DNA of 26,823 nt from a virus. Location: positions 1 through 26,823 of the IMG/VR virus record IMGVR_UViG_3300031951_001027. The stretch is one strand, 5' to 3'. The notes under the pieces were generated by a model that saw only the letters and a program-made list of their open reading frames with translations, had not been told where the DNA came from and ran no database searches. Shown piece by piece: positions 4,274 to 22,710 of the stretch. The translations under genes were made by a program, and so were the position numbers. Every line of letters starts with the position of its first letter. The first letter of the stretch is position 1.

Positions 4274-6442
4274 ATGAAACACCCAACTAAAGGAATTTCA
4301 GTGGCAATCATAACTGAAACACCCCAAAACGACACATTTGTCCAGTCCCAGTCTGTGGCCTGCAAGATAGGCGCAGTCGCACCCGATGCCGTCTTTTGTA
4401 CCTTTGCCCTGCAAGGCAATAAAAAGATTCCATACAAGCGAAGCGGCCAAGGTGTTGCACGGGATACAGACCCAGCAGAACTCTACACATCCGAAGACAT
4501 TTGGGCCATGGAGTCAGCCCCAAGTGGCCAATACCTTGGCCTTGTCCAGCAGCGCCCCATCATCAGCGCATCAGGAAACTATTTGGTTTGCCTTGATGTA
4601 GACATGAAACACGCCTCTGGCCCGACCAACGTGGCCATTCAGCGCATGGCAAAGTATGTCAAGCAAAAGAAGATGCTGACCGAGGTTTCTGTCTCAGGCC
4701 GTGGCCGTCATGTCTTCTTATGGGTCTCACCACCCAAAGAATCTGACCTGGTGCTGCCCAAGTACAAGCTAGGCGGTGGTCAGGAACTGGAAGTATTTGG
4801 CCTCCCAAACAGTGCCGGAAAGTCAGTGCTACTCAGTGGCAACGCTGTGGTGGGTGAATTCCAAGAGGCTGTGGACCTTTTTAGTCTTCTACAAGACTGG
4901 GGCATCATCGAGCAGCACCAGATGCAAGAGCCAAAGCCTGCACCACCTACACAATCATTTGACTTCACCCAATTAGGCTCAAGACTTGAAGACAGCGATC
5001 TTGATCGTGCCATCAAGGCTTTGCACCACATCAGCCCCGACTGTGACTATGACCAGTGGATTGAGCTAGGCCAAGCGCTGCACACCGAATTCGGAGAGGC
5101 TGGTCTTGGCCCATGGATGCAATGGTCTATGGCTGGCCAGAAGTTTGCCGGCACAAAAGACATTGAGACCCACTGGAAGTCATTCCACCAGGGCAAAGGT
5201 GTTGGTCTTGGCACACTCTACAAACACGCCAAGGACTGTGGCTGGGAAGCCCCAACCAAGCAGACCGAGCGTAAAAGTGCGGTGGAAGACTTTGCAGCGG
5301 TGATCAGTCAGGCCCAAGCACCAGTGGCCACAGATGAAGTCAAAGGCTGGCCAGAGCGCCATCTATTCATTGGCCAGATCAAGCCGATCCGCTACATGGT
5401 TAAAGGATTCTGGGCGCACAGTTTCATGGTACTGGCCGGTCAGCCTGGCATTGGCAAGACCACGGCCATCATCAGTCTTTGCATGGTCATGGCAGGCTTA
5501 CAGGCCAAGGACTGCCAACTTACAGCCACCAAAAAGCGCAAAACAATCATCGTGACTGAAGACTCTGACCAGGTTGAAAGAACATTAACAGGCTATGCAC
5601 GGCATTATGGGATAAACCCCAAAGCATTATCAGACTGGTTTGTCATCATCGATGCCAAAAGGTCCAATGTGAAAGATTTACTCATGCTTGCGCATAATGT
5701 AATAAACCACACGATTGATAATATCCGGCCATTATTGGTACTTGACACGGCCAATGCCACCATGGATATTGATAATGAGAATGACAACTCTGAAGTGGGT
5801 GCATATATTGCCGCCCTAAAGCAGACCATCTATATCCAACTGGACACGCCAGTCTGCATCATCACCCACACGAACAAAACAATCAGCAAGTCAGACTCAG
5901 ATGCCACAGCCCGTGGAGCAAGTGCATTCACGGGTGACGCAACCCTCACCGGCATTCTGTTTGAAGACGAGACCAAGACCCGATATATGCGCCTGGTCAA
6001 AACCCGTTACCAACCCAACTTCAGAGAAATTAAATTCCATAGTGATGTCTTTGCCGACACAGTCTTGGATGAAGATGGAGATATCCAAGAGCAGATGGTG
6101 CTACTGGTAGTCCCAGAAATGTCATCAGAGGAAGACCGAAGGCAGGCAGCCAATGACAGGATGAATGACAAGCGCCAGCAACAAGTCCAAGATGCCGCAG
6201 ATGCTGCCTGCAACTTTGTCCAAAGCATCATCAATGCTAAAGGCGCAGTCATTATGCGCAGAGGGTCAGGGCGGCCATCAGTGCCAAAGGAGATGGCAGG
6301 GATGCACCAACTTGAGTGGGCCGACATCTACCAAGCAGTGCCAATGGCTGACCAAAGCTATGCCAGACGGGCAGTAGGCGCGGCTATTTTCCAGCGCTTC
6401 TGTCAGGACCAATCAGGCAATGGGTGGGTGCAAATAAAGTAA
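4274..6442 (+). CDS. Primase-helicase: AEP-like primase, PriCT-like domain and RepA-like ATPase
   Basis: A 722-residue replication initiator/helicase. Residues about 30-210 look like an archaeo-eukaryotic primase (PrimPol) domain, with catalytic-type CLDVD (D108, D110), SGRGRHVFLW (141-150) and an acidic strand ELEVF (171-175). Residues about 240-325 resemble a PriCT-2 domain (DYDQWIELGQALH, KGVGLGTLYKHAKDCGW). Residues about 360-620 are a RecA-fold, RepA/AAA_25-like ATPase with Walker A GQPGIGKT (389-396) and Walker B PLLVLD (486-491). A GTG at 4301 with AAGGAA six to seven bases upstream is a strong alternative start; either removes nothing from the domains. The stop codon lies inside the first origin iteron, so this protein is the best candidate iteron-binding initiator. 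Confidence 0.85.
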   Translation: MKHPTKGISVAIITETPQNDTFVQSQSVACKIGAVAPDAVFCTFALQGNKKIPYKRSGQGVARDTDPAELYTSEDIWAMESAPSGQYLGLVQQRPIISASGNYLVCLDVDMKHASGPTNVAIQRMAKYVKQKKMLTEVSVSGRGRHVFLWVSPPKESDLVLPKYKLGGGQELEVFGLPNSAGKSVLLSGNAVVGEFQEAVDLFSLLQDWGIIEQHQMQEPKPAPPTQSFDFTQLGSRLEDSDLDRAIKALHHISPDCDYDQWIELGQALHTEFGEAGLGPWMQWSMAGQKFAGTKDIETHWKSFHQGKGVGLGTLYKHAKDCGWEAPTKQTERKSAVEDFAAVISQAQAPVATDEVKGWPERHLFIGQIKPIRYMVKGFWAHSFMVLAGQPGIGKTTAIISLCMVMAGLQAKDCQLTATKKRKTIIVTEDSDQVERTLTGYARHYGINPKALSDWFVIIDAKRSNVKDLLMLAHNVINHTIDNIRPLLVLDTANATMDIDNENDNSEVGAYIAALKQTIYIQLDTPVCIITHTNKTISKSDSDATARGASAFTGDATLTGILFEDETKTRYMRLVKTRYQPNFREIKFHSDVFADTVLDEDGDIQEQMVLLVVPEMSSEEDRRQAANDRMNDKRQQQVQDAADAACNFVQSIINAKGAVIMRRGSGRPSVPKEMAGMHQLEWADIYQAVPMADQSYARRAVGAAIFQRFCQDQSGNGWVQIK

Positions 6443-6512
6443 AGCGGTAAACAGGTAGTAAACAGGTAGTAAAGCGGTATACCTGTTTAGACAATGGCTG
6501 GCTCTGTTGGTA

Positions 6513-6537
6513 TAAGTGGGGGTCGTAGACCCACTTA
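6513..6537. repeat. Hairpin in the origin region
   Basis: TAAGTGGG (6513-6520) pairs with CCCACTTA (6530-6537). Two further pairs (TC/GA), set off by a GG bulge, close a GTA loop. The right arm runs directly into the DnaA box at 6535-6543. Such a hairpin could be a cruciform, primase landing or single-strand initiation structure. Confidence 0.5.
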
Positions 6538-6543
6538 TCCACA
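6535..6543 (+). promoter_or_regulatory. DnaA box TTATCCACA
   Basis: A perfect match to the strong bacterial DnaA box consensus, located between the two iteron groups. With iterons on both sides this suggests cooperation between host DnaA and a phage initiator. Confidence 0.65.
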
Positions 6544-6571
6544 GGCAAGTCTGGCAAGTTTTGTGATGGTG

Positions 6572-6624
6572 AAAAGTAAAGCGGTAAAGCGGTAGATTTC
6601 CTTTGTCCATACCGCTTTACTTTT
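6572..6624. repeat. 15-bp perfect inverted repeat closing the iteron region
   Basis: AAAAGTAAAGCGGTA (6572-6586) and its exact reverse complement (6610-6624) are separated by 23 bp containing a further direct iteron. The right arm ends in TTTT on the plus strand, so it could act as a terminator after the replication operon as well as an origin element. Downstream lie GGAGG (6635-6639) and the next gene. Confidence 0.6.
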
Positions 6625-6645
6625 AACGATTTTTGGAGGTTATCG

Positions 6646-6978
6646 ATGGTCCAACAAGTTGAACAGTTATCCACAGGTTATCCACAGTCGTTGGATGAGA
6701 GGGTTTTTTGCCATGAATGTCAGCATTCATGCATGGTCGAGCAGCGCCAGTCCATGCCAGCAGAGCAGATGGAAAGGCACAGGAAGGTCAACTCAAAACC
6801 ACTCCAGTGGATGTTTGACCAGGCAAAGATTAGGAATGGATGGGCAACCATCACATGGTCCGAACATCAGTGCGGCCAGACTGGCCTTGCCGCATTCCCA
6901 ACCGATGTCAAACACCGATGCCATTTGTTCCAAGCCAAAGCCTCGGCAGTAGAATCGGAGTCATGGTGGTTGACATAA
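6646..6978 (+). CDS. Cys/His-rich putative zinc-binding phage protein (110 aa)
   Basis: A 110-residue protein with an excellent Shine-Dalgarno (GGAGG, 6 nt before ATG). It carries a CHEC knuckle (C22, C25) with H27 and C29 nearby and a second possible ligand set (H90, C92), suggesting a zinc-binding domain; the intervening region is basic and Trp-rich (PLQWMFDQAKIRNGWATITW). Two perfect DnaA boxes (6667-6686) lie within codons 8-14, so part of the origin overlaps its coding sequence. It precedes the VRR-NUC nuclease gene, which it overlaps by 16 bases. No family confidently recognised; a replication- or recombination-linked DNA-binding role is inference from position. Confidence 0.55.
   Translation: MVQQVEQLSTGYPQSLDERVFCHECQHSCMVEQRQSMPAEQMERHRKVNSKPLQWMFDQAKIRNGWATITWSEHQCGQTGLAAFPTDVKHRCHLFQAKASAVESESWWLT
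6667..6686 (+). promoter_or_regulatory. Two tandem perfect DnaA boxes
   Basis: TTATCCACA occurs at 6667-6675 and again at 6678-6686, separated by two bases. Two consensus boxes 11 bp apart in the same orientation would place two DnaA molecules on the same face of the helix. The spacing matches the 11-bp iteron period nearby. Confidence 0.65.
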
Positions 6979-7830: not shown

Positions 7831-8140
7831 TTCAGTCACTTTATACAACGATCATTATGTTAAGTGGACAAGTCGTTATCCACAGAATTAAGTGCATCAA
7901 AGTATTACAAGCCTAGTTATGCACAGGAATCTGTGGATAAAGTTGGCCAAAATCTGGGGACAAGTCGGTGGTGGCCAGCTGGCGGTCGGTGGCGCGACCC
8001 CCCCCATGGCCGGATCGGAGGGGGCGACTGTGGCGGCACTAAACACCTACAAAAAAAATTTTCTAAAAAATAAAAAAATAATTTAACAAACAAGTCAAAT
8101 TGTGCAAAAATGTCAACTCCACAAACAACGGAGCAAACGA
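7831..8140. other. 310-bp noncoding region: DnaA-type boxes, GC hairpin, A-tract block
   Basis: No convincing gene is present. From left to right it holds a DnaA box TTATCCACA (7876-7884), a one-mismatch box TTATGCACA (7917-7925) and an inverted perfect box TGTGGATAA (7932-7940). A 10-bp direct repeat GGACAAGTCG occurs at 7866-7875 and 7958-7967, and its core ACAAGTC again at 8090-8096. A palindrome GCCAGCTGGC spans 7974-7983. A GC-rich hairpin joins eight C residues (7998-8005) with GGAGGGGG (8017-8024). An A/T block (8051-8085) has a single C. The layout suits an unwinding element beside DnaA sites, or a packaging site next to terS; it may also carry a late promoter. Confidence 0.6.
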
Positions 8141-19077: not shown

Positions 19078-19890
19078 ATGGCAGCCTATGGATCGGGGAA
19101 TTTTGGTGTTGGCCAATACTCTGATCCGAGGGTAGGCTACGGCTACGGCTCTTATGGCAAGGGCAACTACTCCAGAGGCACATTTGAGCCTGCTGTAAAC
19201 ATTACAGCAACCAGCACCATGACCATTGGTGCTGGGGTTATTGCCAAAGCAACTATTGCCATTTCTAGCACATCCACCATGTCGGTGGCAGCGACCAGAT
19301 ACACATTTGGCTCACTGGCAATATCTGACACTAGCACTCTGATGGTCAATGCCAGCTCAATTCTTAGAGCAAGTCTAGCGATATCAGACTCTAGCGTCAT
19401 GGCCATCAATGGCCTGCGCTATGCCATTGGTGTGGCCACAATCAGCGACACAAGCACCATGGCCGTGGCTGGGGTGCGTTATGCAGTGGGCGCAGCCGCC
19501 ATCAGTGACACAAGCACCATGGCGGTGGCTGGTCTCAGATACGCCATTGGCGCGGCCACCATTACAGACACATCGACACTGACAGTCGGCACAAGGATTC
19601 TTGGCAATTCTGGCTTTGCCATGACTGGCACAAGCACTTTGGTGGTGAATGCACAGCGCAGGCAGCCTGGTGCTATTGCTTTTACAGAAACATCATCCAT
19701 GGCGGTCAATGCAAGACTAAAATGGCAAGCAGAAAGTGACACGGCAGAAAGTTGGTCTGGGATATCTGATAATTCAGAGACTTGGACACCGATATCTGAC
19801 CAGTCAGAAACATGGACTGCAATTAGTGATTCAAGTGAAACTTGGACTCCAATTGCTGATAATAGTGAATCTTGGCAAATTGCCGCATGA
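19078..19890 (+). CDS. Two-tier tandem-repeat tail or surface protein (270 aa)
   Basis: A 270-residue secretion-signal-free protein. Residues 1-39 are Gly/Tyr-rich (YGSGNFGVGQY, GYGYGSYGKGNY). Residues 40-216 are nine tandem 20-residue units of the form xAISDTSTMAVxGxRYxxGx. Residues 220-269 are five tandem 10-residue units SDxSETWTPI. The regular short-period beta-strand pattern suggests a fibrous beta-solenoid or triple-stranded fibre shaft with a Trp-rich tip. It begins 1 base after the preceding stop and sits among tail genes, so a tail fibre or adhesin role is likely. No known family was recognised. Confidence 0.7.
   Translation: MAAYGSGNFGVGQYSDPRVGYGYGSYGKGNYSRGTFEPAVNITATSTMTIGAGVIAKATIAISSTSTMSVAATRYTFGSLAISDTSTLMVNASSILRASLAISDSSVMAINGLRYAIGVATISDTSTMAVAGVRYAVGAAAISDTSTMAVAGLRYAIGAATITDTSTLTVGTRILGNSGFAMTGTSTLVVNAQRRQPGAIAFTETSSMAVNARLKWQAESDTAESWSGISDNSETWTPISDQSETWTAISDSSETWTPIADNSESWQIAA
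19195..19725 (+). repeat. Nine 60-bp coding repeats (20-residue units)
   Basis: The coding DNA for residues 40-216 consists of nine consecutive 60-bp units, the last truncated to 51 bp. Units 5 and 6 (codons 120-159) are nearly identical in protein sequence (ISDTSTMAVAG followed by RYA and GA). The DNA similarity is high enough that unit number could change by slippage or recombination. Confidence 0.7.
19735..19884 (+). repeat. Five 30-bp coding repeats (10-residue units)
   Basis: Codons 220-269 form five exact-length decapeptide units: SDTAESWSGI, SDNSETWTPI, SDQSETWTAI, SDSSETWTPI and ADNSESWQIA. The period is exactly half the preceding 20-residue period, and every unit has a conserved Ser-x-Trp. 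Confidence 0.75.
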
Positions 19891-22213: not shown

Positions 22214-22710
22214 TTGATCCGATGACGGCCCTGGCGGGGATACAAAGCGCCATCAGCATGGTCAAAAAGGCCAGCAAGGTGGCCAATGATTTAGGCTCAC
22301 TTGCCCCAATGATTGGCAAGATGTTTGACGCAAAGTCTGTGGCCACCAAGGCCATGCTTCAAGCAAAGCAGTCTGGCAAAGGCTCAAACATGGGTACGGC
22401 CTTGCAGATTGAGATGGCACTGGAACAGGCCAGAGCCTTTGAGGAAGAGCTAAAAATGCTTTTCATGCAGACTGGCAAGATTGATGTCTGGAACAAAATC
22501 AAGGCCAGGCAGGCCGAGATGGACTTGGCTGATGCCAAAGAATTAAGCGCATTAAAGAAGGCCGAGAAAGAGGCTAAAGCCAAAGAGCAAGAAATGAATG
22601 AGCTGGCCATGATCATTGGCGGTGTGGCTTTTGTCTTGTTTCTGGTGGCAATTGGCATCAATGAATTGATGGACTTCTGTGCAACAACTCGCAGATGTGG
22701 CGGCAGATGA
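22210..22710 (+). CDS. Helical protein with C-terminal membrane anchor (166 aa)
   Basis: A 166-residue protein: an N-terminal region rich in small and hydrophobic residues (MIDPMTALAGIQSAISMVKK), a long charged coiled coil (about 66-132, with ARQAEMDLADAKELSALKKA), and one transmembrane helix (132-154, ELAMIIGGVAFVLFLVAIGI) near the C-terminus. This layout recurs in freshwater phages between tail and lysis genes and may be a lysis regulator or internal virion protein. Start at 22210 makes an ATGA overlap; the frame open to 22186 is less likely. It ends in an ATGA overlap with another membrane protein gene. Confidence 0.65.
   Translation: MIDPMTALAGIQSAISMVKKASKVANDLGSLAPMIGKMFDAKSVATKAMLQAKQSGKGSNMGTALQIEMALEQARAFEEELKMLFMQTGKIDVWNKIKARQAEMDLADAKELSALKKAEKEAKAKEQEMNELAMIIGGVAFVLFLVAIGINELMDFCATTRRCGGR

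Follow-up and report, generated by a model that had tools for sequence, protein, structure and literature searches.

The alpha protein of phage P4 is a replication initiator, and the iterons that it reads lie within its own gene or close by. Lambda has four 18-bp iterons inside gene O, whose product is not known to contain a primase or a helicase, and lambdoid phages carry type-specific O/ori pairs.

Several described systems come close to the locus analysed here, as they are presented in those parts of the cited papers on which we draw. SaPI Rep and SCCmec Cch2 use a C-terminal domain to recognise iterons behind their own genes (PMC7581432), and in PLE the RepA protein and the origin form exchangeable modules, the selective force being likely an origin-directed nuclease (PMC8263062); PLE replication needs cognate RepA-origin pairs (PMC8263062, PMC7145576). 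In the plasmid pRN1 a stem-loop that follows the PrimPol-helicase gene ORF904 is required (PMC4234260), and hairpins that contain a DnaA box act in the ABC primosome (PMC6127211). Here we describe a replicon, for which we found no description in the open-access literature, in a 26,823-nucleotide stretch of viral DNA (hereafter the window). What is new is that, among aligned relatives, the last ~100 residues of its probable initiator track the iteron word.

A PrimPol-helicase gene and the region behind it

The features of the initiator gene and of the region directly downstream are as follows.

4274–6442, plus strand: PrimPol-helicase of 722 aa, probable replication initiator (PriCT_2, AAA_25, fold matches)
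6122–6439, plus strand: C-terminal domain tracking the iteron word, codons 617–722 (border approximate, from A/B columns and divergence block)
6439–6449, plus strand: iteron 1, GTAAAGCGGTA, exact, overlapping the stop codon
6447–6457, plus strand: iteron 2, GTAAACAGGTA
6458–6468, plus strand: iteron 3, GTAAACAGGTA
6469–6479, plus strand: iteron 4, GTAAAGCGGTA, exact
6480–6490, minus strand: iteron 5, inverted, CTAAACAGGTA, one mismatch
6501–6546, plus strand: hairpin of 17 pairs between the iteron groups, -12 kcal/mol as single-stranded DNA
6535–6543, plus strand: DnaA box within the hairpin's 3' arm, perfect TTATCCACA
6576–6586, plus strand: iteron 6, GTAAAGCGGTA, exact
6584–6594, plus strand: iteron 7, GTAAAGCGGTA, exact
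6610–6620, minus strand: iteron 8, inverted, GTAAAGCGGTA, exact
6667–6675, plus strand: DnaA box within the next ORF, TTATCCACA
6678–6686, plus strand: DnaA box within the next ORF, TTATCCACA

The 722-aa protein matched PriCT_2 (1.8e-18) and AAA_25 (7.7e-18) in Pfam. A structural model that drew on 55 related sequences had a mean pLDDT of 71.8, with some weak stretches in the helicase; it resembles NrS-1 PrimPol at its N-terminus (6a9w, E 6.3e-10, TMt 0.46), which agrees with the PrimPol-type initiator proposed in a first-pass annotation of this DNA. The modelled helicase part resembles RAD51/DMC1 and then RSF1010 RepA (1g8y, E 2.4e-3, TMt 0.51); we call it RepA-type on the strength of AAA_25 and of this 1g8y match behind RAD51/DMC1, its hexamer being predicted only. 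The C-terminal domain had no noteworthy match in Pfam and none at E 0.001 or better with Foldseek, and the best scores in a second structure comparison (Z 3.8 for 6r7f_O, cullin residues 655–744, and about 3 for glutaredoxins) were at noise level; such a missing match does not show a new fold. Its G-x-G-R-P loop may resemble an AT-hook. Sequence matches to pentatricopeptide proteins in the PDB at aa 177–213 were judged spurious, and plasmid matches, among those listed, covered at most 29% of the query, around the PriCT-2 region. The initiator unites a PrimPol, a RepA-type helicase and a probable origin reader in one polypeptide.

A sequence scan of the window located eight 11-bp units in the 182 bp from 6439 to 6620, comprising five exact copies of GTAAAGCGGTA, two of GTAAACAGGTA and one inverted CTAAACAGGTA. 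The units fall into two groups, the first starting at 6439, 6447 (+8), 6458 (+11) and 6469 (+11) before an inverted unit at 6480, and the second at 6576 and 6584 (+8) before an inverted unit at 6610, so that an inverted copy closes both. The stop codon of the initiator gene (TAA, 6440–6442) falls within iteron 1. The first-pass annotation had therefore described the anatomy correctly, both in its eight units, three at 11-bp spacing with inverted copies closing the groups, and in the overlap of the first copy with the primase-helicase stop codon. It had also held that scatter of the motif across the genome would count against an origin. In the window the motif is confined to the array, with zero matches elsewhere at 0–1 mismatch and three at 2 mismatches; matches with at most 2 mismatches number 10, against a mean of 2.79 in shuffled sequences, 0/100 of which reached 10.

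The hairpin between the two groups has a z-score of -4.56 (0/200 shuffles). Its energy ranks 14 among 2678 50-mers of the window and does not single it out by itself, because thirteen other sampled 50-mers fold equally well or better. The DnaA boxes reported at the array were recovered as TTATCCACA at 6535, 6667 and 6678. Clustered direct repeats that adjoin an initiator gene and are absent elsewhere in the window, together with a DnaA box inside the origin, are features of iteron origins. The ORF behind the origin (6646–6978) is small, encodes a CxxC-type Cys cluster and holds two perfect DnaA boxes in its coding sequence; Pfam and PHROGs gave it no match at E 0.001. A search of Rfam returned no match.

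Layout of the region in relatives, and GC skew

A first scan for relatives gave 80 loci, the scans keeping the best 80 of 120–175 relatives; classes D and E, and later F, came from subsequent scans. By the word repeated in the array, these 80 relatives and the window comprise 45 loci of class A (GTAAANNGGTA), 8 of class B (GTAATGCGGTA) and 23 of class C (CTAATNCGGAA), the remaining 5/81 being unclassified as the contig ends too early, near the end of the gene. Loci with under 250 bp behind the gene (8/80) were left out of the layout reading. In all, 111 origins merged to 93 distinct sequences. Separately, three class E loci were left unclassified. The spacing of the units recurs just behind the PrimPol/PriCT-2/RepA-type helicase gene in the relatives, with a repeated word that differs by class, and a layout score that is independent of the word placed 89/93 distinct origins below all 465 shuffled controls, although these 93 sequences, like the 20 records used below, are related and not independent. 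The four origins that failed (L102, L105, L111 and L112) are all of class E. The conservation in relatives on which the first-pass annotation had let its origin reading depend is thus borne out.

Within each class, every copy in the array has changed together to the class word, and in the other class A–C records the class word occurs 6–8 times genome-wide, which is about the array's own content (these being totals, not positions). Overlap with the stop codon belongs to classes A and B, and the class C array begins 5 bases past the stop (24/24 distinct). Arrays have also lengthened by whole units, as in L110 (+11 bp relative to L111) and in L296, L297 and L302 (+19 bp). L312 and L326 form a further lineage with B-like words. 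There are seven C-terminal domain lineages and at least five word types. One metagenome, 3300031857, holds classes A, B and C together (L006, L023 and L077). The earlier suggestion of two iteron subtypes for two proteins was dropped, since the middle bases (GC, CC or CA at word positions 6–7) are exchanged at identical unit positions among relatives; the two "subtypes" are interchangeable variants of one site and give no evidence for two proteins.

Some further observations concern the relatives and the rest of the window. In L031, whose origin is of class B in all other parts, the last inverted unit of the second group is A-type (TACCGGTTTAC), a pattern that a crossover within the group would give. 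A phage-like contig (L087, 1–9897) with a primase-helicase and a class D origin lies inside a MAG named uncultured Acidimicrobium; it gave the single match in a collection of genome contigs, is possibly mis-binned and was not counted as host evidence. In a phage collection we found no DNA match to window positions 1–25000. ORF 19078–19890, possibly encoding a structural protein, is internally repetitive, with units such as ISDTSTMAV and ISDSSETWT.

The hairpin is kept at 13–17 pairs in 92/93 distinct origins, a figure in which pairing as such is partly built in because every sequence was folded to its own energy minimum. Across relatives, several of its positions show two or three Watson-Crick types, and its energies compared with shuffles give z -3.5 to -7.2 in 14 representatives; two origins added later, L234 and L312, gave -2.86 and -2.59. 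In these relatives the hairpin with its DnaA box is maintained despite base turnover. When G003 is read as circular, 75/76 exact copies of TTATCCACA in 20 records lie within 2 kb of the array. The sole exact copy far from the origin region is G014:C1:19608–19616.

The same 20 records (the window, 18 virus records and MW202879) served for GC skew, which the first-pass annotation had proposed as a check for an origin at about 6.5 kb. The cumulative skew of the window has its minimum at 6022, and in 20/20 records the detrended cumulative minimum lies at most 475 bp from the DnaA box of the hairpin, although these do not count as 20 independent tests because the records are related. Without detrending, the minimum falls near the array in 5/20 and elsewhere in 15/20, mostly at the contig start because the overall skew is positive; the detrended maximum has no fixed place. 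The ORFs taken as genes run on the plus strand from 1854 onward, so a switch of coding strand does not account for the flip at 6 kb. Taken together, the uniqueness of the array, the conserved layout and the skew minimum support the origin reading well. The array itself is not conspicuously AT-rich (best 40-mer 0.60–0.72 AT), and a stretch of 0.95 AT lies 1.5 kb away in a second element (7876–8090) that sits between the small and large terminase genes:

7876, plus strand: DnaA-type box of the second element, TTATCCACA
7917, plus strand: DnaA-type box of the second element, TTATGCACA
7932, minus strand: DnaA-type box of the second element, TTATCCACA
8051–8090: 95% AT 40-mer, following the second box group

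C-terminal domain and iteron word across the classes

Comparison of the 45 class A and 8 class B proteins yielded 14 columns with disjoint residues, all at aa 627–716. Four class B proteins (L023, L031, L040 and L042) join an A-type helicase to a B-type C-terminus, and the other four (L054, L056, L057 and L058) have a C-like helicase. For the helicase part (5344–6064) there are two groups of alleles, the A-type and one common to class C and half of B; they recombine with respect to the primase part as well as to the C-terminal domain.

At the DNA level, divergence was scanned in 60-bp windows over those 53 of 76 classed loci that hold the full region (31 A, 5 B and 17 C). Between-class minus within-class divergence for A and B is at most 0.05 up to 6064, rises to 0.13–0.25 in windows starting at 6124–6544, is 0.07 at 6604 and falls to 0.01–0.03 right past 6664. 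The A/C and B/C excess is also high over this block and persists at 0.04–0.09 to about 6724, and that of A/C is additionally raised over the helicase from 5344. In these loci the A/B divergence is thus confined to a ~500-bp block made up of the codons of the C-terminal domain and the origin, and the two behave as a block in phages in which the primase domain and the downstream genes hardly sort by class. The stronger proposal, that this block is the sole class-associated region, was refuted by an A-versus-C comparison of one rotated record: among windows with at least 0.75 shared within A, values exceed 0.2 at 1001–2500, which corresponds to helicase, domain and array, and at 22501. Other windows above 0.2 are poorly shared even within A. 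In some windows C is closer than A.

Pattern scans, with the type of domain assigned by visual inspection of the final 50 residues (27 residues only for L241), found an A-type domain ahead of 52/53 class A arrays and a B-type domain ahead of 10/11 class B arrays. The exceptions are L247, which ends at a contig border, and L234, whose domain is 54–59% identical to those of A, B, C, D and F alike (54% to A) and is nevertheless followed by class A words. Neither an array without an initiator nor a free-standing C-terminal domain turned up in the 53 A-layout and 11 B-layout contigs or in the 75 of 80 domain matches examined; many of these contigs were also in the first scan, and the scans for relatives kept the best 80 of 120–175. 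A single specificity residue was sought and rejected: S665 is found in class A and L234, whereas classes B, C, D and F have P or A at this position, and a control over all 15 pairs of six lineages gave 0–3 such columns per pair, so that a lone shared column does not exceed chance.

Because the codons of the domain lie next to the array, linkage by itself could hold the pair together and could explain part of their co-segregation; linkage as the whole explanation is made less likely by the A/B block, both ends of which fall close to the limits of domain and array. Our best reading of these patterns is that the C-terminal domain binds the iterons and that domain and array move together as a specificity cassette. 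The first-pass annotation has neither this link between domain and word nor the DnaA-box hairpin.

Mechanism, alternative readings and known systems

We infer iteron binding, a role for DnaA, helicase loading and the direction of the forks as parts of one scheme. The C-terminal domain (about aa 617–722) would bind the 11-bp iterons that immediately follow its own gene, and the two groups of iterons, which both end in an inverted copy, would place two initiator assemblies about the central hairpin. Host DnaA may then bind the box in the hairpin and help to expose single-stranded DNA, on which the RepA-type helicase ring would load and the PrimPol domain would prime. The C-terminal domain, the iterons and the hairpin would be inherited jointly as an exchangeable cassette of origin specificity.

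We consider it probable that the region at 6439–6620 is the origin of a tailed phage, that the C-terminal domain binds its iterons and that both are inherited as such a cassette. The region could instead be an origin at which a different protein reads the iterons, with the C-terminal domain tracking the word by codon adjacency only. Its codons are indeed contiguous with the array, it has no recognised DNA-binding fold, L234 couples class A words with a divergent domain, and no lone residue accounts for the word beyond chance; we still find a separate reader unlikely, since the block of A/B excess divergence stops near the domain and array borders on both sides, helicase alleles are exchanged against the domain-array block, no other gene within 1.4 kb downstream sorts by class, and the cited account of SaPI Rep and Cch2 has them bind iterons behind their own genes through C-terminal domains (PMC7581432).

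That the array is an operator for a phage regulator, perhaps the initiator itself, over the downstream genes, with the origin elsewhere, strikes us as very improbable. The second group does stand just before ORF 6646–6978, its inverted copy 26 bp ahead of the start codon, but 6250–6850 has no sigma-70-like promoter or terminator-like site (0 found, with 0.7 and 0.4 expected, for the sigma-70 type only), and skew minimum, DnaA boxes and hairpin all coincide with the array. Autoregulation and origin function can, moreover, coexist. We give marginally less credence still to initiation at the second element (boxes at 7876–7940 and AT stretch at 8051–8090) with the array as an auxiliary, even though that element resembles a DnaA-box site with AT-rich unwinding sequence and recurs: all 15 class A–C records have at least one box at offset 1038–1433, and 14/15 have one of their four AT-richest 40-mers at offset 1515–1552. 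The skew minimum lies at the array and not 1.3–1.5 kb downstream, and the second box group is absent from the five class E and W01 records, two of which have AT-rich 40-mers at 1426–1442. The second element may be an accessory site for unwinding or a control element in its own right.

Returning to the reading of an origin with its own specificity cassette, we suggest, tentatively and with more doubt than confidence, that phages sharing and reassorting the rest of the replication region keep coexisting, mutually exclusive origin alleles under negative frequency-dependent selection, exchanged as cassettes. Such alleles might, for instance, avoid replicon incompatibility when infections are mixed, or evade origin-cutting nucleases or decoy origins, the last being a plausible pressure because extra copies of the lambda origin are described as arresting lambda (PMC4488673). 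If the alleles are mutually exclusive, origin type would serve to mark competition between replicons in environmental phages. Dozens of natural alleles of this phage replicon, several of which are domain chimeras, single out ~100 residues as the probable iteron reader and hence make origin specificity and exchange testable with natural parts only; the DnaA-box hairpin is a possible link to the host.

Set against the published accounts, in the parts cited, the locus shares with SaPI Rep and Cch2 an origin directly downstream of the initiator gene, and SaPI5 Rep too has a primase part (PMC7581432). Those initiators have DUF927 or Primase_Cterm/D5_N helicases, whereas ours has a RepA-like AAA_25 helicase, and the sections cited do not mention a DnaA-box hairpin (PMC7581432). 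Pfam detected no DUF927, Primase_Cterm or D5_N in the 722-aa protein at E 0.001 or better. For C-terminal iteron binding of the SaPI Rep/Cch2 kind, the present data consist of the co-segregation of domain and word.

As in PLE, the origin and what is here the putative DNA-binding domain of the initiator covary and are exchanged as modules; PLE differs in using a RepA_N family initiator with an N-terminal DNA-binding domain and neither primase nor helicase, in its iterons of ~30 bp and in being a satellite rather than a phage (PMC8263062, PMC7145576). Our initiator had no RepA_N match in Pfam at E 0.001 or better. With pRN1 the locus shares an origin element directly behind a PrimPol-helicase gene and a stem-loop whose shape is kept while its sequence changes, but pRN1 is an archaeal plasmid with an SF3 helicase, a stem-loop of ~100 nt and, in the account cited, no iterons identified (PMC4234260). 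RSF1010 oriV likewise combines iterons with a RepA-type helicase and has stem-loops recognised by primase, its RepA, RepB' and RepC being separate, whereas primase and helicase form one 722-aa protein here (PMC4234260).

The DnaA box within a hairpin recalls the A-site of the ABC primosome, which loads host DnaB via DnaC, whereas this phage has its own predicted helicase (PMC6127211). NrS-1 polymerase has the same PrimPol fold at its N-terminus and differs in having an SF3 helicase in place of AAA_25 and an 8-nt recognition sequence found twice per genome (PMC7102993). Lambda O/ori offers the parallel of a phage initiator reading iterons in or near its own gene (PMC6022878), and the CyRepA proteins, with DUF3854 and DEXDc domains, have another architecture (PMC10079941). 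The replicon thus combines features of known systems with a helicase of another family, and SaPI Rep/ori and PLE RepA/ori are its precedents.
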